Source: Capniomyces stellatus (taxonomy: Eukaryota > Kickxellomycota > Harpellomycetes > Harpellales > Legeriomycetaceae). Taken from it: 64,000 nt of DNA. The position numbers and the translations under genes were made by a program. The stretch lies in contig LUVW01000042.1 in NCBI GenBank assembly GCA_001661515.1, forward strand, positions 1-64,000, given 5' to 3'. Shown piece by piece: positions 8,831 to 19,460 of this stretch. Each line of letters begins with the position of its first letter. The first letter of the stretch is position 1. The notes below the pieces were generated by a model, which worked only from the letters and a program-made list of their open reading frames with translations, was not told where the DNA came from and ran no database searches.

Positions 8831-10875
8831 ATGTCCAATTACTACCCAAGAGACGATTACAACGACAGCCATAATAGGGAGGCGGGCAACGGCAGCACGA
8901 ACAATTATGGCCAAGGCGATGCTTATCACCAAAATTATCAGAACCAAGAGTATGACAACAACGGGACCAGAGCTGTTTTTTCAGAATCACAGGAACCTGG
9001 AACAAGAGCAGGAGGAGGCTTTCCAGATTCTGGCCAAGGCTACAGCATTCCTGGAGGGTTCCAAAGCTCAACAAATAACCAAGAGCACGGATATGGCGGA
9101 GGTTACAACCAGCCCCCAAAGAATTCAGGCGGAGGTTACCAAAACCAACAGGGAGGGTTTCCAAGCCACAATTCAAACAATTACGGAGGCAGTAACGATG
9201 GGTACTCGCAACGTCCACAGCAAGGAAACAACAATGGACCAGCATTTAATCCACAAATGAACCCACAAGGATATGGGGCAAACCAAAGCCAAAGCCCACA
9301 ACCAAGCCAACAGGGTCAAGGATATAATAGTGGGCCTGGCCAAAGACCTCAAAACCCTCAAGGTGGGTATGGAAACAGCCCAGGGCCAGGAATGGGAGGA
9401 GGAAGACCAGGCTCAGATAATAGACCCCAGAACCAGCAGCAAGGATATGGAAACAGTCCAGGGCCAGATAATAGACCTCAAAACCCTCAAGGTGGGTACG
9501 GAAACAGCCCAGGGCCAGGATATGGAAACAGCCCAGGGCCAGGGATGGGAGGAGGACCACGCCCACCAAACCAGCAACAAGGATACGGAAACAATCCAGG
9601 GCCAGGGATGGGAGGAGGATCAGGACCAGGAATGGGAATGGGAGGAGGACCAGGGCCAAACAATAGACCCCAGAACCCTCAAGGTGGGTACGGAAACAGC
9701 CCAGGGCCAGGATATGGAAACAGTCCAGGGCCAGGAATGGGAGGACCAGGAATGGGAATGGGAGGAGGGCCACGCCCACCAAACCAGCAACAAGGATATG
9801 GAAACAGCCCAGGGCCAGGATCGGGCTCTGGTCCTAGGCCACCTACTGGCAGCAGTGGTCCACGGCCATCAAACTTTGCGCAAAGTCAAGGAAATGGACC
9901 TAGACCTAACCAAGGACAAGGTTCATCGTATTCCGGGTCAGGAAATAGTGGAGGCGGTGGTGGAGGGCTAGGCGGAGCACCAGGAGGACTGAATTTAGGA
10001 ATGTTGGCTGGTTTGGCAGCTGGGTTAAGCCCAATGTTGGGAGGTGGAGGAAGTGGTGGAGGCAGCCATGCCGGTGGAGGTGGAATGGATATAGGCAAAA
10101 TCATGGGGCTGCTAGGCGGCTTCGGTGGTGGCTCAAAACCACAGGGCGGAAGCAGTGGAGGAGGAGGAGGTGGTGGAGGGTTTGATATAATGAGCCTTGC
10201 CTCTTCATTCTTAGGCGGTAAGCCTAGTAGCGGTGGTGGCGGCGGCGGCGGTGCAAGTAGCAGCATGATAACAGGCGTGAGTATCTATCTATCTAAGTTT
10301 GGTTGTTATAAAGCACTAGCTTGTTGAAATTTAAGGCTTTACGAGCACAAATGACTTTGTGATTAAACTGTGACTTTTTTTATTTTTTATTTTATTTTTT
10401 TCGGTTTAGTTGCTTGGAAATCTTATGGGCGGGTCAAAGAGAGACATAAACTCGGTTTCGACTGCCTTGAACTACAACGAAGCAGTCGAGGCGCACAGGG
10501 TTGTTTATGTAAGTTTGAACATAATATATATATGTATATATATGTATATATTTAACACATACGCGACCTGAATCTAAAAAGTATATACAACGTGCACTTC
10601 TTTTGTTGACTACGATTTAGGGATCGGACTTTATTGCCAACTTTGAGCCAGAGTATTTGGGTGGGGCTGTTGCGGTAGAGGCTTTGCAGAAAGTTCAGCA
10701 CATGCCTCAAGACAAAGTATCAGACGAAATGGTAATTGCTGCAGTGGCCAATGAGTCACTTGAGCTGCACAGTAGGTATCAAAGCCAAGGCGGCAGGTGC
10801 AGTTCAGACTCCATTTCGGGCGCTGCAGTCCAAACAGCCACAGAGATTCTTAGCGAGTCTTTGAGTAGATATTGA
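8831..10875 (+). CDS. Gly/Pro/Gln/Asn-rich protein with C-terminal DUF7721-like ('beta-flanking') module
   Basis: Exons 8831-10276, 10410-10508 and 10621-10875 join in phase 0 to give 599 residues. Residues 1-~330 are low complexity, dominated by repeated QGYGNSPGP, NRPQNPQGG and GPGMGGG blocks, a prion-like composition. Residues ~370-480 are Gly-rich with short Met/Leu stretches (MDIGKIMGLLGG, FDIMSLASSFLGG). The C-terminal ~120 residues are mainly helical: LNYNEAVEAHRVVYG, GGAVAVEALQKVQHM, DEMVIAAVANESLELHSRY and AAVQTATEILSESL. That order resembles the fungal family I know as beta-flanking protein (DUF7721), whose function is unknown to me. The downstream intronless gene at 12919 has the same module order, so the two are probably paralogs. 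A cytoplasmic or condensate role is speculation. Confidence 0.8.
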
Positions 10876-12918: not shown

Positions 12919-13425
12919 ATGGATTTTGGTAGTTTGGCAAAAATGGCAGAGGGAGCACTTGGGTCAGCAAGTAAAGGAGGGTCAGGAGGAGGAGGGGGAG
13001 GAATGGACATATCGAATATAGCATCTATGGCATCAGGGATGATGGGAGGGGGAGGAAGTGGAGGGGGAGGAATGGATAAAATGGTGATTGAACAAGTGAT
13101 GAAAATGGCGACAAGCCAAGGATCAGCACCAAGCGACGAAGAGATCAAAGGGGCGCACGACCAAGCATACGGGGGTGGGGGAGGAGGGCTACAGGCAATG
13201 TCACAAAAAGCAATGGGAATGGCGGCAGGATACCAAATTATGCAAACAGTAGGAGGGGGTGGAGGTAGTGGAGGTGGCGGAGGGATGGACAAGATTATTT
13301 CTATGGCGATCAAGGAAGCAATGAAGTTGTTTAGCAACAGTGGAAAGTCTGGTGAGCAAGGAGGAGGAGAAAAGGATGTTATGGCGTCAGCTGTACAGAC
13401 TGTAATGAAAATGATGGGAAAATAA
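12919..13425 (+). CDS. Small Gly/Met-rich DUF7721-like ('beta-flanking') protein
   Basis: A single exon encodes 168 residues. It starts with MDFGSLAKMAEGALGSASKG, has a Gly-rich segment with MDISNIASMASGMMGG, then MVIEQVMKMATSQGSAP. The helical module follows: DEEIKGAHDQAYGG, AMSQKAMGMAAGYQIMQTV, a Gly linker, MDKIISMAIKEAMKLF and DVMASAVQTVMKMMGK. This layout matches the beta-flanking (DUF7721) family as I remember it; no biochemical role is known to me. It is a short form of the upstream 8831-10875 protein, sharing the C-terminal module order but lacking the long Pro/Gln-rich N-terminus and both introns. It is convergent with the large PHD gene, only ~250 bp away. There is no signal peptide. 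Confidence 0.82.
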   Translation: MDFGSLAKMAEGALGSASKGGSGGGGGGMDISNIASMASGMMGGGGSGGGGMDKMVIEQVMKMATSQGSAPSDEEIKGAHDQAYGGGGGGLQAMSQKAMGMAAGYQIMQTVGGGGGSGGGGGMDKIISMAIKEAMKLFSNSGKSGEQGGGEKDVMASAVQTVMKMMGK

Positions 13426-13676: not shown

Positions 13677-16600
13677 TTAAGAGAAATAGGAGCAGGTATT
13701 GTTTTTGGTAGAGTTTATGTCTAAACAGATAGTATCCAGTTCCAGCCCTAACCCAGAATTGGCGTCGTTGATGTCGTTGTTAGTGTTGTCGTTGTTGTTG
13801 TTAGTGTTGATGTTGGTGTCGGTGTTTGGGTGTGCAGCGTTGAGTATTGATGAGGGTATTGATGTGGATGGTTTGATTAGAGGATGGGGACAAGGTGTGG
13901 TAAAGGATGGATTTGGTGTTGATATTGATTTTGTGAGGGTGTTGAGTTTTTGGTTGTTGGATGGTTCAATGGAAGGTTCGATGGGTGCATCAATGGGTGT
14001 ATCAATGGGTGCATCGATGAATGGTTCAATGAATGGTTCAATGGATGGTTCGGTGGATGGTTCAATGGAAGGTTCGGTGTGTGTATCAATGTTAATTGAA
14101 GAATAATCAGCACTGGAGTTGAATGAAATGTTCAACTTTCTGCAAGTACTGGCCAGCTGGCAGTAGTTTTGATAGTTGGGCAAGTTATCGTAGAGCAAAT
14201 CAACGAGGTTGTGGTTGGTTAGGTTTAGAAATGCGAATGGTTTGTTGTTTGCTTTTTTGCAGAACAAATCGAGTTTTTTGGAGACGATGTTGTTGTTGAT
14301 GAGATGGGGTAGGAGTTGTAGGTATGATTTGATTGATGAGGAGAAGAAGGATGTGGATTGGGGAATTGATTGGCAGATGGAATGGTTGATGAGAGATTTG
14401 TTGGGCAAGCTACTTTTAGTGTTGGTATTGGTGTTGGTTAGAACGTAGACTTTTGTTGACCAGGATGCACAGTAGTTGATTTGGGTAGAGGGATTGTCAT
14501 GGACTTTGATGAAATTTTGGGAGTTTTGGTTGGGATCGAGTTGGGCGGTTAGACTCATAACAAACTGGGTGTTGCATAGTTTGATGTGGTATTCGCAGTG
14601 GAACCCAATTGGTATGGCCCATTTGGGAAAGTCGTTGGTGACGGGAACGAATGTTTGTTGAGAATCTAAGCTAGTAGTGGGAACTTCAACACAATTGTCA
14701 ATTGGGGATGTTGGAGTTGGGATTGTTGGAGTTGGAATTGTTGGGATTGAGTCTGTTGGAATTGTTGGGATTGTTGGTAGTTCGCCAAGTGAATATACGA
14801 GTAGCTGACCGATTTTGTAAAAGTGGTTGGGTTGGTGGGCAGTGGTAGAGGGGATGTTGGTTGATTGGTTGTGGGAAGAGATGTGGATTGACGTGTTTGT
14901 GAAAAACGGGTTATACCCAGCCAACGCTGCAGAACCAGCGGTATGTTGTGTGGGTTGGGGAAAGTACTCGGAAAACTTTTGGACATGTTGGTAGCAAAGC
15001 GCACGTTTCCAAGAAAACGACAAGGATGGAAGTTCGTTGGAAGCTGAAAGAATCTGTTTGAGTAGACATGGAAGGTGGAAGCTGAATTTAGACTTGTTTT
15101 CTGTAGCTGGAGTTGGTTCGGTATTGGTTGGATCAGTATTGGTTGGATCAGAGTTGGTTAGTTCGGTATTGATTGGGGATGTGGGTAGTAAGCAAGGAGT
15201 TGGGGCACAGCACTTGATTGTGGCAGTGTTTTGGAGGCAGTAAAAGCAAACATTAGAATCTTTTGATTCGTTGGATTGATTGGATTGTAAGCTGGAAATC
15301 AGAGGTTGGGCATTGTCAAAGTGGAGTGAGAAACAAGGAGTAAAGCTGTTGAGAACAAGCCCAGAGGAAGTTTTAGATGGTAAAGAAGGATCAAGTAGGG
15401 ATGTACTGAGATAGTTGTTGTTGGGTAGAGATGTTGGGGGTTGAGAGGGGTGGTTGGGAGAGGAGAGGAGTAAGTTTAGGTTAGTGGGTAGTTGAGATAG
15501 GGATTGGTTGGGACCCCATGCAAATGCTAGGCATTGTGAGTGAACAAAGCGGGTGAGTTTAGACGAGTTTGTTTGTAGGGGGATTAACGAACCAAGAGAA
15601 AATAGGGAGGATCCGATTTGAACTAGATTTCCGTCGCCAACCAGCAAACAAAGCTCGCATTTTCTGTAATCTTGGATTTGGATATGGTTGTTGGTATCGT
15701 TGAATAGCTGAGATGTAAGTTGATGTTCAAGATGTTTTGGATTATTCAATGGTTCTGGATCAATATCGGTTTTATTGTAGAGTTGGTTGTGTTGAAATCG
15801 TTTGTCTGAATTTGTAAGGTGAAGAAGCAAGGAGGCTTCATTTTCATTTTCAATGTCTTCTGTTTCTTTATTTTTGTTGATAGAGTTGTTGATAGAGTTG
15901 TTGATTGAAGATTGGATGATCAGATCGTTGCATAGATCATCGGTCAAATAAGTGGATTGATCGACTGGACTGATTTTGGTTAGACAGAATGGCAGTTTGA
16001 GTTTTCTTTCGACTTTAATGCCACCACTATTGATGTTGATTGTATTGGCATTATCACTACTAGTAATAGTAGTAGTACTAGTAGTATTAATAGTATTGTC
16101 GGTGGTGGTATTAATGGGCAAGGTAGAATCGGAAGAGTCAGTGTTGGTTGTGAGATTGATGGGGAATAGGCGACATTCGGGGCAAGCGTAAGGAACGTTT
16201 TTGACGGTAGTTAACCAGGTGTAAAGGTCATTGTTAGAGGCCAAAACAGAGTCACAGCGGACATGCAGCCAGGCGGCACAACCGTCGCAGCGGATCATGG
16301 GGCAAAGAGCCAAAGAGTCAGAAAACGAAACAGAGCAAACAGGACAAGCATGGCCTTTTTCAAAGCGTTTTGAGCAGTTGTTGCATAGCAAGTAGTCATA
16401 ATGAAACGAGTACTTTTCGGTGTTTGCGGGATCGTCAGGTGGTAATTGGTGGGTTGGAGCAGCAGGAGTAGCAGGAGTAGTGGGAGCGGGTTGGGGGTGT
16501 TTTGTGGGTCGTTTCAGGCCAACAAAGTCAGCAGACTTGGCGGTTTCGAGGCAGCAATTGCATTCTTGGCAAAGGAGGCAGTCATCGCAAACAAACAGGT

Positions 16601-19460
16601 TCTGGGCAGTTGCCTTGTCCAGTGCGTGGGGCTGCTTGGAACATCTTGCGTGTGTTGGCAAGTGGCAGTTGTTGCACTTGAGCAGAACATCGTCAGTGTC
16701 GTCTACTATGTTACTATTACACTTTTTGCAGCAACTGCAGCGGTCACAGTAGTACTGTAATTCCATCCCCCCTGCAACCAAACTTTTATAATCTAAACCA
16801 GCACAGTAGCTGTGGGTCTTTAACCCGCACCCACAACAGCTCAACATACCACCCACACTCTCAATTATACTATTATCAACACTGTTACCATCACTATTAC
16901 CATCACTACATCCACACACGCTGCACAGACCAAGAACTACAGATTCGGTCCCAACCTCTCCGCAAATCACCTTTGTTCCCCCAAAAAACCCCGTCTGCGT
17001 CCTGCCAACCACCTGCCACAGCTGCGGCTTTGCTGCTGTTCTTCGTGCCTGCCCTCTTTGTTCCGTTCGTGTTTTTGCAAACTGGTTGAGTGCCTCTTGA
17101 ATCAGCCTTCTTAGTCTGTACCGCCCACGGTACTGGTTTGCCTTTCTGTCTGGCCCCTTTTCATGCACTGCTTGCTTGAACATCTCTAGTTCCTTGCTTA
17201 TTTCCTCCACATTTATTTCTCGCTTTTCTTCCTTTTTAACCACTTCTTTTTTTACCACTTCTTTTTTTACCACTTCTTTTTTTACCACTTCTTTTTTTAC
17301 CACTTCTTTTTTACCTCCTTTATCCTTTATCTTCAAGTTTAAATTTAAATTTAAAATCGAATTCAACTTTGTCTTGTTTTCTCCATATAATCTGTTCCTC
17401 ACTCCTCCATCCAACAATCTACCACCAACTCCATTCACTTTTACGCCAGCACCTTTATTCCCGCCTCCTGTTTTTATTATTTCTTTTGATTTTACTTTTG
17501 AGTTTGCATTTGCATTTACTCTTGGCTTTGCTCTTGGTCTAGCTTTTGTTTTACTTTCTGTTTTTGTATCAGTGCTCTTAATTTTATCATCATACTCATT
17601 TCCAAACTCTATCTCTTTTCTTTCCCTCTCCCTCTCCCTCTCCCCTCTCCTTTCGCTATCTTCATTACCACTCTCTTCATTGTCACTCTTCTCTATACCG
17701 GTTTCACTTTCAAATTCTGCATACTCCTCATACTCATCAGTCCCATCTACATGCGGTTCTTTGACATATTTTCGTTTTCTGCCTCCTTTACTGCCTCCAT
17801 TCGCTCCATTCGCTCCATTGATTCCATCGTTTCCTGTTACTATTACTGTTGTGGCTTTGATCTTTTGTTTGTACTTTCCTCTGCTCTTGGCTCTACTGTT
17901 GCTTTCCAGCTTACTACTAACTGGCCTGTCTTCGTTTATCCCTTCATATTTCGGTTTAAGCGAACTTGCTGTTATTGCCACTGCCGCCACTGCTGCTGCC
18001 CTTCTTTGCTTGACAATCCCAATTCCTATATTGCTATATTCATTATCGCTCTTTTGACTCTCAATTTGTACCTCTTTACTCTGTTCCTGTTCTTGTTCCT
18101 TTTTTTGTTTTTGATCTCGCTCTAAACTATTCTCGGTTCTTGCGTTGCTGTAATCTTCACTCTCAATCTGTCCATCTACATCCATTCCATCGTTACTACT
18201 CTCAATACTGTTACACTCGTTATCCTCTTTAGAAGTCTCTTTTGTTTTTTCTCTGTCTTCTATATTCGACCCTTCTTCCTTTACTTTTTTACTCAAGCTT
18301 ACTATCCTTTCTTTCAAATCTTCCTTTTCCTTTACGTGTTCTTCTCCGCTTTCTTTTAGCTTGACAAGTTTCTCCCTGTTGTTGCTACTTATGATCCCAC
18401 CTTTAATATCATTCCCAAATCCTCCTCCATTCAATCCCATTCCAAATCCCTGATTAACGTTCATGTTCATATTTAGGTTCATATTTAGATTCATATTTAG
18501 ATTCATGTTCATGTTCATATTCATATTCATGTTTGTGTTCATGCTTGTGTTCATGTTCATACTTTGTTCTAGGTTTTGGTTCAGATTGAGCTTTATATCC
18601 ATCCGCGGCTTCTTTATTCCGTTGCTCGAGTTGATTTTTATATTTGTAAACGTTCGCTCCTTTTGGATTTTTGCCATCAATTCCCTCCTTAGCACATCTA
18701 GTGTAATCGAAAACACTCCTTGTTTAAAGTGCTCTTCCGCACTGCTCATTCTCGAGTATTCTTGCGATAGCTTATACAGTTCCGTATAGTTTCTATTGCC
18801 ACTGTTTATCAATACCCTGCACGCTGTCCATCCATTCACCGCTACTCTACCAACAACTGCCCCGTTTGCCCCACCACCACTACCATTACTACCACCAACA
18901 CCAATACCACTATTCGTTTCTATCGATATTCTCTCTACATCTCTACTCCGCTCCTCCGCTTTGCCTTCTTCAATCCTTTCTTCATCACACACACTCTCAA
19001 TTCCGTTTTCTTTTTGGCTTTCTCTACCTTCATTGTTTTCTTCTCCCTCCCCCCTTTCCCCCATCGCCTTTTCGTTTTCCTTTTTTAGCTGCTGTGATTG
19101 AAATCGAATCAGCTTACAAACCGCTGTTGCCCACGCTGATGGTGTATCATACTTTCCCTCCAACATATTCCCTTTTCCTCCATCATTCTCAACATTGCTT
19201 ACTTTTTCCACCATTTTCTTGTTACTCTCATCGTATCTAATCGATTCTTTATATCCGTATTTCACCTCATTTGCTATCAGTGTCCCTTTTTCCGTCACTT
19301 GTGCAAAGTACTCTCCATTTGGCGTACACAGTACTGTTGATCCAACCTGAATCAAATCTCCTTCCACCAAATCCAATATCGTCACCTTTCCTTGCCCCTG
19401 CCATTTCTTTTTATCTGCTCTATTTACCTCCCTTTTGTACCTTTTATTTGCTGAATTCAT
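13677..19460 (-). CDS. MLL/Trithorax-like chromatin protein: RAMA-like, PHD cluster, extended PHD, FYRN-FYRC, no SET
   Basis: One exon encodes 1,927 residues. Residues ~26-118 plus 207-217 resemble a RAMA domain (ILDLVEGDLIQVGSTVLC, YDTPSAWATAVCKLI, then VNGWTACRVLI), split by an acidic/Gly insert. Basic AT-hook-like patches follow (GRKRKYVKEP, KARPRAKPRV). Residues ~840-1095 hold three Cys/His PHD fingers (LCSVCGC, CNNCHLPTHARC, IRCDGCAAWLHVRC). Residues ~1265-1490 look like an extended PHD (KCELCLL, FVHSQCLAF, VCFYCLQN, FHLPCLL, ALCYQH). Then comes an FYRN-like region from ~1546 (FYKIGQLLVYSLGEL, WAIPIGFHCEYHIKL) and an FYRC-like region to ~1770 (FLNLTNHNLVDLLYDNLP, NYCQLAS). In MLL/Trx proteins the same order leads to a SET domain; here an Asn/Pro/Thr-rich tail of ~150 residues ends the protein. 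A role as histone-mark reader or COMPASS-associated scaffold is inferred. PHD calls are firm, FYR calls likely, RAMA tentative. Confidence 0.82.
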   Translation of the reverse strand: MNSANKRYKREVNRADKKKWQGQGKVTILDLVEGDLIQVGSTVLCTPNGEYFAQVTEKGTLIANEVKYGYKESIRYDESNKKMVEKVSNVENDGGKGNMLEGKYDTPSAWATAVCKLIRFQSQQLKKENEKAMGERGEGEENNEGRESQKENGIESVCDEERIEEGKAEERSRDVERISIETNSGIGVGGSNGSGGGANGAVVGRVAVNGWTACRVLINSGNRNYTELYKLSQEYSRMSSAEEHFKQGVFSITLDVLRRELMAKIQKERTFTNIKINSSNGIKKPRMDIKLNLNQNLEQSMNMNTSMNTNMNMNMNMNMNLNMNLNMNLNMNMNVNQGFGMGLNGGGFGNDIKGGIISSNNREKLVKLKESGEEHVKEKEDLKERIVSLSKKVKEEGSNIEDREKTKETSKEDNECNSIESSNDGMDVDGQIESEDYSNARTENSLERDQKQKKEQEQEQSKEVQIESQKSDNEYSNIGIGIVKQRRAAAVAAVAITASSLKPKYEGINEDRPVSSKLESNSRAKSRGKYKQKIKATTVIVTGNDGINGANGANGGSKGGRKRKYVKEPHVDGTDEYEEYAEFESETGIEKSDNEESGNEDSERRGERERERERKEIEFGNEYDDKIKSTDTKTESKTKARPRAKPRVNANANSKVKSKEIIKTGGGNKGAGVKVNGVGGRLLDGGVRNRLYGENKTKLNSILNLNLNLKIKDKGGKKEVVKKEVVKKEVVKKEVVKKEVVKKEEKREINVEEISKELEMFKQAVHEKGPDRKANQYRGRYRLRRLIQEALNQFAKTRTEQRGQARRTAAKPQLWQVVGRTQTGFFGGTKVICGEVGTESVVLGLCSVCGCSDGNSDGNSVDNSIIESVGGMLSCCGCGLKTHSYCAGLDYKSLVAGGMELQYYCDRCSCCKKCNSNIVDDTDDVLLKCNNCHLPTHARCSKQPHALDKATAQNLFVCDDCLLCQECNCCLETAKSADFVGLKRPTKHPQPAPTTPATPAAPTHQLPPDDPANTEKYSFHYDYLLCNNCSKRFEKGHACPVCSVSFSDSLALCPMIRCDGCAAWLHVRCDSVLASNNDLYTWLTTVKNVPYACPECRLFPINLTTNTDSSDSTLPINTTTDNTINTTSTTTITSSDNANTININSGGIKVERKLKLPFCLTKISPVDQSTYLTDDLCNDLIIQSSINNSINNSINKNKETEDIENENEASLLLHLTNSDKRFQHNQLYNKTDIDPEPLNNPKHLEHQLTSQLFNDTNNHIQIQDYRKCELCLLVGDGNLVQIGSSLFSLGSLIPLQTNSSKLTRFVHSQCLAFAWGPNQSLSQLPTNLNLLLSSPNHPSQPPTSLPNNNYLSTSLLDPSLPSKTSSGLVLNSFTPCFSLHFDNAQPLISSLQSNQSNESKDSNVCFYCLQNTATIKCCAPTPCLLPTSPINTELTNSDPTNTDPTNTEPTPATENKSKFSFHLPCLLKQILSASNELPSLSFSWKRALCYQHVQKFSEYFPQPTQHTAGSAALAGYNPFFTNTSIHISSHNQSTNIPSTTAHQPNHFYKIGQLLVYSLGELPTIPTIPTDSIPTIPTPTIPTPTSPIDNCVEVPTTSLDSQQTFVPVTNDFPKWAIPIGFHCEYHIKLCNTQFVMSLTAQLDPNQNSQNFIKVHDNPSTQINYCASWSTKVYVLTNTNTNTKSSLPNKSLINHSICQSIPQSTSFFSSSIKSYLQLLPHLINNNIVSKKLDLFCKKANNKPFAFLNLTNHNLVDLLYDNLPNYQNYCQLASTCRKLNISFNSSADYSSINIDTHTEPSIEPSTEPSIEPFIEPFIDAPIDTPIDAPIEPSIEPSNNQKLNTLTKSISTPNPSFTTPCPHPLIKPSTSIPSSILNAAHPNTDTNINTNNNNDNTNNDINDANSGLGLELDTICLDINSTKNNTCSYFS
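13969..14088 (-). repeat. In-frame 12-bp repeats encoding EPSI/DAPI units
   Basis: About ten 12-bp units lie in the C-terminal tail of the PHD/FYR protein. They encode tetrapeptides such as EPSI, EPFI, DAPI and DTPI. All unit lengths are multiples of three, so the frame is kept. Confidence 0.85.
17239..17312 (-). repeat. In-frame 15-bp repeats encoding KKEVV units
   Basis: Five near-identical 15-bp units encode consecutive KKEVV pentapeptides in the middle, highly charged region of the PHD/FYR protein. The near-identity suggests recent expansion. Confidence 0.9.
18450..18561 (-). repeat. In-frame hexamer repeats encoding Met-Asn / Leu-Asn dipeptides
   Basis: The segment encodes an alternating NMNMNMNLNMNLNM type stretch of more than 30 residues, after the N-terminal region of the PHD/FYR protein. 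The DNA is a 6-bp repeat with a few changes. Confidence 0.88.

Follow-up and report, generated by a model that had tools for sequence, protein, structure and literature searches.

Open reading frame and domain organization

The window, that is, the whole stretch of 64,000 nucleotides analysed here, carries on its minus strand a single open reading frame of 1,927 codons (13677..19460), which is intact and which the first-pass annotation, made from the sequence alone, had described as a single-exon gene (Table 1). An in-frame stop lies four codons 5′ of the first ATG, the probability that 1,927 codons stay open by chance is about 3e-52 as estimated from the base composition, and the remaining five frames of the interval contain 44–150 stops each. 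Low-complexity tracts are numerous in the encoded 1,927-aa protein. The next open frame past the gene is convergent and ends 251 bases downstream. Elsewhere in the window, two Gly-rich open frames on the plus strand (8831–10327 and 12919–13425) resemble each other by eye through their GGGG/MDI repeats, with the second one giving a sub-threshold DUF7721 match (22.4 bits; cut-off, 27), and a fungal tRNA ligase gene is also present.

Table 1 Features of the 1,927-codon gene, listed from the N-terminus to the C-terminus of its product.
Feature	Residues (aa)	Position in window	Strand	Basis
Whole gene, single open frame	1–1927	13677..19460	-	ORF analysis
RAMA-like domain, split by a charged/Gly-rich insert at about aa 126–200 (bounds by eye)	17–235	18756..19412	-	Pfam, NCBIfam
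Low-complexity charged linker (bounds by eye)	280–830	16971..18623	-	Sequence and tandem repeats
PHD1	846–908	16737..16925	-	Pfam, C4HC3 pattern
PHD2, directly abutting PHD1	911–961	16578..16730	-	Pfam, C4HC3 pattern
PHD3, MLL1 PHD3-like	1039–1096	16173..16346	-	PDB match, Pfam, C4HC3 pattern
Extended PHD with long loops and 12 ordered zinc ligands	1268–1492	14985..15659	-	Ligand pattern
FYRN/FYRC-like region, weak support	1546–1740	14241..14825	-	Custom profiles
Pro/Thr/Asn-rich tail, at the position of SET in MLL proteins	1790–1927	13680..14093	-	Sequence, profile searches

RAMA-like domain at the N-terminus

The first-pass annotation had overlooked a RAMA-like domain at the N-terminus, which alters the likely function of the protein. 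With the whole protein as the query, the Pfam RAMA profile matched aa 17–68 at 21.6 bits (E 2.1e-4), and with aa 1–290 as the query the same residues scored 28 bits (E 2.3e-6), under the curated cut-off of 35.2; after removal of the charged insert, the score rose to 35.6 bits. Independently of Pfam, the C-terminal part of the NCBIfam model for CcrM was placed on aa 17–67 (15.9 bits, E 0.0047). The putative RAMA match is thus significant by E-value, yet below the cut-off in the unaltered sequence. The second half of the domain carries, in the PSAWAT stretch at aa 104–119, YDTPSAWATAVCKLI, which phmmer pairs with FNSPSAWATHCKKLV of MPND 112–127 in an alignment that is non-significant overall (E 2). 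When the genome (24.5 Mb, 59 contigs) was searched for the RAMA family, even the present gene was missed, and the search is therefore uninformative on further RAMA genes.

Among the matches listed in the literature on RAMA, a body of text that took in few subscription journals, we found no eukaryotic protein that joins RAMA to PHD. A BioEssays paper of 2016 reportedly named RAMA in eukaryotes, and such architectures may already be listed there. The domain has been predicted to act as a eukaryotic sensor of N6-methyladenine (6mA), and it is coupled to an MPN domain in MPND and to a methyltransferase in CcrM, an adenine methyltransferase of bacteria (PMC9963953), whereas in the fungal protein it is coupled to PHD readers. 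What the three have in common is RAMA by profile, the PSAWAT stretch being shared with MPND and non-significant alone.

RAMA of MPND binds DNA and histones; as to 6mA, one report found a preference and another found none (PMC9963953). The latter finding lends itself to a reading of the fungal domain as a DNA clamp of a general kind, indifferent to 6mA, in a nucleosome-binding co-regulator of active promoters. Indeed, one study found that 6mA made no difference to the binding of MPND to double-stranded DNA and nucleosomes, which was tuned by flanking acidic stretches (PMC9963953), and a charged insert is also found in the RAMA-like domain here. We regard this reading as rather doubtful, since a 6mA preference had been reported in earlier work that the same paper cites, and since the probable 6mA writers encoded in the genome, as described below, would give a 6mA-sensing module a use.

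PHD cluster and extended PHD

The cluster of PHD fingers named in the first-pass annotation was borne out. Although the whole protein reached only 13.7 bits (E 0.066) with the Pfam PHD profile, aa 835–1105 alone scored 31.7 bits (cut-off, 24), with matches on three stretches. C4HC3 zinc patterns were found at aa 846–914, 911–970, and 1039–1096, corresponding to PHD1, PHD2, and PHD3, with two matches non-overlapping; by comparison, 4,991 of 5,000 shuffled sequences contained no match and the other 9 contained one. Among PDB structures, PHD3 matched PHD3 of MLL1 best (E 2.6e-4). PHD1 and PHD2 alone gave E 0.22 for DPF2 (ubi-d4) and E 6.8 for MLL3; as they are by themselves no closer to MLL than to DPF2, their MLL character rests on the domain order. 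A genome search with the PHD part (E ≤ 1) found no second copy, the sole match being the gene itself.

The four residues that form the H3K4me3 cage in PHD3 of MLL1, at positions 1576, 1581, 1585, and 1594 (PMC8022399), namely Y1576, Y1581, M1585, and W1594, align with F1046, A1051, M1055, and W1064, so that compatible residues occur at three of the four positions and Y1581 is lost; in addition, Q1587 is replaced by R1057. As judged by eye, C964/C967 and C1026/C1029 could form a C4 finger that extends PHD3, as in KMT2 proteins (PMC9813062). According to the same source, clustered PHDs of KMT2 localise to promoters and enhancers rich in H3K4me3, and in vitro they bind modified and unmodified H3 equally.

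For the extended PHD, which had likewise been proposed in the first pass, 12 zinc ligands occur in the proper order, an arrangement found in none of 20,000 shuffles with spacing ranges that were set post hoc, the sequence having already been seen. In MLL1, the extended PHD is PHD4. The Pfam zf-HC5HC2H profile gave 10 bits (E 1.1) on this region, and PDB sequences gave no match to it. The genome search with zf-HC5HC2H listed five other places, the extended PHD of the present gene being absent from them.

FYRN/FYRC-like region

The FYRN and FYRC domains proposed in the first-pass annotation were not borne out. Neither Pfam family matched the region at E ≤ 10, and the present gene was absent from the matches listed when the whole genome was searched with FYRN and FYRC. 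A profile built from 42 FYR sequences scored 3.3 bits on the unaltered region, equalled by 71 of 5,000 shuffles, and 5.9 bits after removal of a Pro/Thr-rich insert, equalled by 8 of 5,000. A four-sequence profile scored 0.7 bits on the unaltered region, less than the value of 2.0 that marks the 95th percentile among the reported shuffles, and 3.8 and 1.7 bits on two insert-free versions. Models by AlphaFold from single sequences had pLDDT values of 33.7 for the FYR region, which is uninformative, and 37.1, both too poor for a fold search. By eye, the stretch of extended PHD and FYRN seems to resemble human MLL1, which we take as a lead only, outside the counted evidence. Because the region sits behind the extended PHD, FYRN/FYRC in this protein is nevertheless plausible. 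The FYR part has no second copy in the genome (E ≤ 10), the sole match being the gene itself. Stealth_CR2 (E 0.063) and, within the Pro/Thr-rich part, SIN3 (E 0.08) also matched the FYR piece, both at the level expected by chance.

The same genome-wide searches listed two clean FYR loci, on contigs C11 and C24. The former (L011; FYR at 1318–1743) is a TBRG1-like gene (E 3e-32 to 2wzo), which over its FYR region shares 86% identity with Zancudomyces culisetae, followed by Spiromyces, Mycoemilia, and Smittium. Many of its relatives in other early fungi carry the further Pfam domains PF24237 and PF24245 and go by the name of INO80 subunit E/F in some sources. The latter (L020/L012) has FYRN and FYRC on separate exons, followed by an acidic low-complexity open frame, and its contig is free of SET matches.

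SET, Set1, and the position outside KMT2 enzymes

A profile search found neither SET nor a bromodomain in the 1,927-aa protein. The genome contains 11 SET matches, none of which lies on the contig of the gene (C37), and the best of them is an ordinary separate Set1 with RRM, N-SET, and SET; the search for a separate SET protein suggested in the first pass was thus successful. A hidden SET exon was ruled out, both by the missing SET match on C37 and by the adjacent convergent frame. CXXC was likewise absent from the protein, and none was found in the genome at E ≤ 10 in a search run without a true positive control. A genome search for Dpy-30, also without a positive control, led nowhere.

Judged from its domain content, the protein is not a KMT2/MLL (Trx) enzyme and stands outside that class because SET was tested and is absent. 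It shows the PHD triplet with an MLL1-type PHD3 and the extended PHD ahead of the possible FYR region, and it is without SET and CXXC. The MLL/Trithorax-like order without SET, as first annotated, therefore stands for the PHD cluster, the extended PHD, and the likeness of PHD3 to PHD3 of MLL1, and falls short at FYRN/FYRC. That annotation had further suggested a scaffold for, or an antagonist of, COMPASS, and a partner or antagonist role remains reasonable because a separate ordinary Set1 exists. We hold the antagonist as a minor rival. A catalytically empty MLL paralogue competing with Set1/COMPASS for chromatin would agree with a reader order similar to that of MLL and with the absence of SET, but its origin by copying would call for a gene having both FYR and SET. 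No such MLL-type gene was seen, since the sole contig shared by FYR loci and the 11 SET matches is C11, where the two lie about 248 kb apart, and the closest precedent, Drosophila Lpt/Cmi, acts as a partner of Trr (PMC9813062); such competition seems highly improbable.

Probable adenine-methylation writers in the genome

The search for MT-A70 gave three matches on two loci, on contigs C25 (L017) and C34 (L018), with no others found. The C25 product scored 186 bits against the MT-A70 chain whose structure was determined with MTA9 (7f4r/7f4s), a chain that we take to be Tetrahymena MTA1/AMT1, versus 101 bits against METTL3, and FDVIVMDPPW, containing the catalytic DPPW motif, lies just upstream in the presumed preceding exon. 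The C34 product matched MTA9/AMT7 best (42 bits, E 6.8e-10), and its DPQL, aligned with NALW of MTA9, is as expected for the role of an inactive partner. Neither locus is nearest to METTL3, METTL14, or METTL4, both being nearest to the DNA-type pair. The presence of an AMT1-type C25 gene and an MTA9/AMT7-like C34 gene thus suggests that the two products are likely the writer pair for 6mA in DNA. With regard to other methylated bases, the genome search gave one weak match to a cytosine-C5 DNA methylase (L021, C1:1536343–1536852; 28.6 bits).

These genes also bear on the host, which the first pass had discussed in the frame of ascomycete yeasts. An ascomycete host was ruled out by the AMT1-type gene, the AMT1 pathway being said to be lost in Dikarya (PMC12695648), and by the likeness of the C11 FYR gene to Zancudomyces, a genus of Harpellales, Kickxellomycotina. 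The host is instead Kickxellomycotina-like.

A possible link between 6mA and H3K4me3

Co-occurrence of 6mA and H3K4me3 nucleosomes is described in the literature; in species encoding AMT1, 6mA is placed downstream of start sites, between H3K4me3 nucleosomes, and knockdown of mta1 in Rhizopus was accompanied by an altered distribution of H3K4me3 (PMC13297926). According to the available text of PMC12695648, Naegleria has, like most eukaryotes, a p1 protein without PHD, and 'intermediate proteins' would hence be needed; the same text states that 'identifying potential readers is key'. As far as the available part of the 2026 review goes, fungi have so far yielded no canonical 6mA reader (PMC13297926).

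From this layout, the intermediates called for, and the observation on mta1 in Rhizopus, we infer that the 1,927-aa protein may be a scaffold that bridges 6mA DNA and H3K4-methylated tails and retains the separate Set1/COMPASS there, to which we assign a probability of roughly 0.42. At the level of sequence, this reading draws on the open frame, the RAMA match, PHD1–3, the ligands of the extended PHD, the absence of SET, and the genes for the AMT1-type enzyme, its AMT7/MTA9-like partner, and Set1. Presumably, RAMA would contact linker DNA that is rich in 6mA and lies downstream of the start sites of active genes, PHD3 would read H3K4me3 on the next nucleosome, and the half comprising the extended PHD and FYR would dock a partner. 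The direction would run from 6mA to H3K4me3. The protein would then correspond to the reader half of MLL1 in which the CpG sensor CXXC has been replaced by an adenine-methylation module, with catalysis residing elsewhere. Points that speak against this reading are the unproven conservation of the gene, the score of RAMA under its cut-off in the unaltered sequence, the likeness of PHD1 and PHD2 to DPF2 as much as to MLL, the study in which MPND showed no preference for 6mA, the lost cage residue, the equal binding of modified and unmodified H3 by KMT2 PHD clusters in vitro, and the weak FYR match. A more far-reaching version, in which the protein is a dedicated eukaryotic 6mA reader and the missing go-between of 6mA and H3K4me3, that is, an MLL-type scaffold in which RAMA has taken the place of the CpG-methylation sensor and catalysis is by Set1, is possible but somewhat doubtful.

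The direction may also be the reverse, the PHDs reading H3K4me3 and recruiting AMT1, together with its partner, to linker DNA, with RAMA either clamping the DNA or reading hemimethylated ApT and the protein being the fungal counterpart of the PHD-bearing p1 of ichthyosporeans. The genome encodes an AMT1-type enzyme and a partner, the ichthyosporean p1 carries PHD (PMC12695648), and RAMA occurs in the adenine methyltransferase CcrM (PMC9963953), the model of which matched here. In Acanthamoeba, however, H3K4me3 is dispensable for 6mA (PMC12695648). This finding also counts against the preferred reading, as does the possibility that co-occurrence of the two just follows transcription (PMC12695648). 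We consider the reverse direction unlikely.

If the preferred bridging of 6mA DNA and H3K4-methylated tails holds, the gene would be a candidate both for the link between 6mA and H3K4me3 and for a fungal 6mA reader, points left open in the available texts of PMC12695648 and PMC13297926. Since RAMA, the PHD cluster, and the extended PHD/FYR half are separable parts of this candidate, the question of 6mA and H3K4me3 becomes accessible to pull-down and deletion.

Comparison with known systems

MLL1 has the order CXXC (recognizing non-methylated CpG), PHD1–3, bromodomain, PHD4, FYRN, FYRC, and SET (PMC8022399). The fungal protein has in common with KMT2A/MLL1 and Drosophila Trx the order of abutting PHD1 and PHD2, PHD3, extended PHD, and possible FYR; it differs from them in having RAMA in place of CXXC, in giving no bromodomain match, in being without SET, and in that its FYR is unproven. 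As to Drosophila Lpt, we know of no RAMA in it. Lpt/Cmi carries its PHD clusters on a protein of its own, with catalysis in Trr (PMC9813062), and the same split is proposed for the fungal protein; it has two clusters, a quartet and a triplet, and its partner is a KMT2C/D orthologue (PMC9813062). In the AMT1 complex of ichthyosporeans, p1 combines PHD with a part of the 6mA pathway that binds DNA (PMC12695648), as the fungal protein would; p1 of Rhizopus is Myb-like (PMC13297926), as compared with RAMA, three PHDs, and an extended PHD here. The authors of PMC9813062 state, in the part available, that they knew PHD triplets only in animal KMT2 proteins, and the fungal gene would place an MLL1-like triplet outside animals. 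In the available text of a survey of fungal SET proteins (PMC9692433), the terms MLL, KMT2, and FYR are absent.

Homologue searches and base composition

Homologues were sought in a database of 5.8 billion proteins, including those of Zancudomyces, Smittium, and Coemansia, among proteins of about 1,060–3,370 aa (0.55–1.75 times the length of the query protein) having short words in common with it. With aa 820–1720 as the query, none was found at E ≤ 0.001 among the 7,971 candidates scored, and with aa 840–1100, none at E ≤ 1 among 394 candidates. Conservation of the gene is therefore unproven, and searches of this scope would overlook an orthologue that is mis-annotated or has diverged. These two queries, the many low-complexity tracts, and the strong divergence of FYR and the extended PHD might point to a gene that is decaying, or that is specific to its lineage and drifting fast, and has little function at present. 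Such decay is hard to credit, given that 1,927 codons have stayed free of stops against the chance estimated above and that the zinc ligands of the PHDs and the extended PHD are retained.

The GC skew at codon position 3 is +0.17 to +0.70 over codons 1–900 and then −0.53 to −0.87 over codons 901–1927, with values of −0.27 to +0.37 in three other genes of the window. This flip at the PHD cassette may reflect the joining of two genes in an old fusion, or else a switch in strand asymmetry near 16.5 kb.
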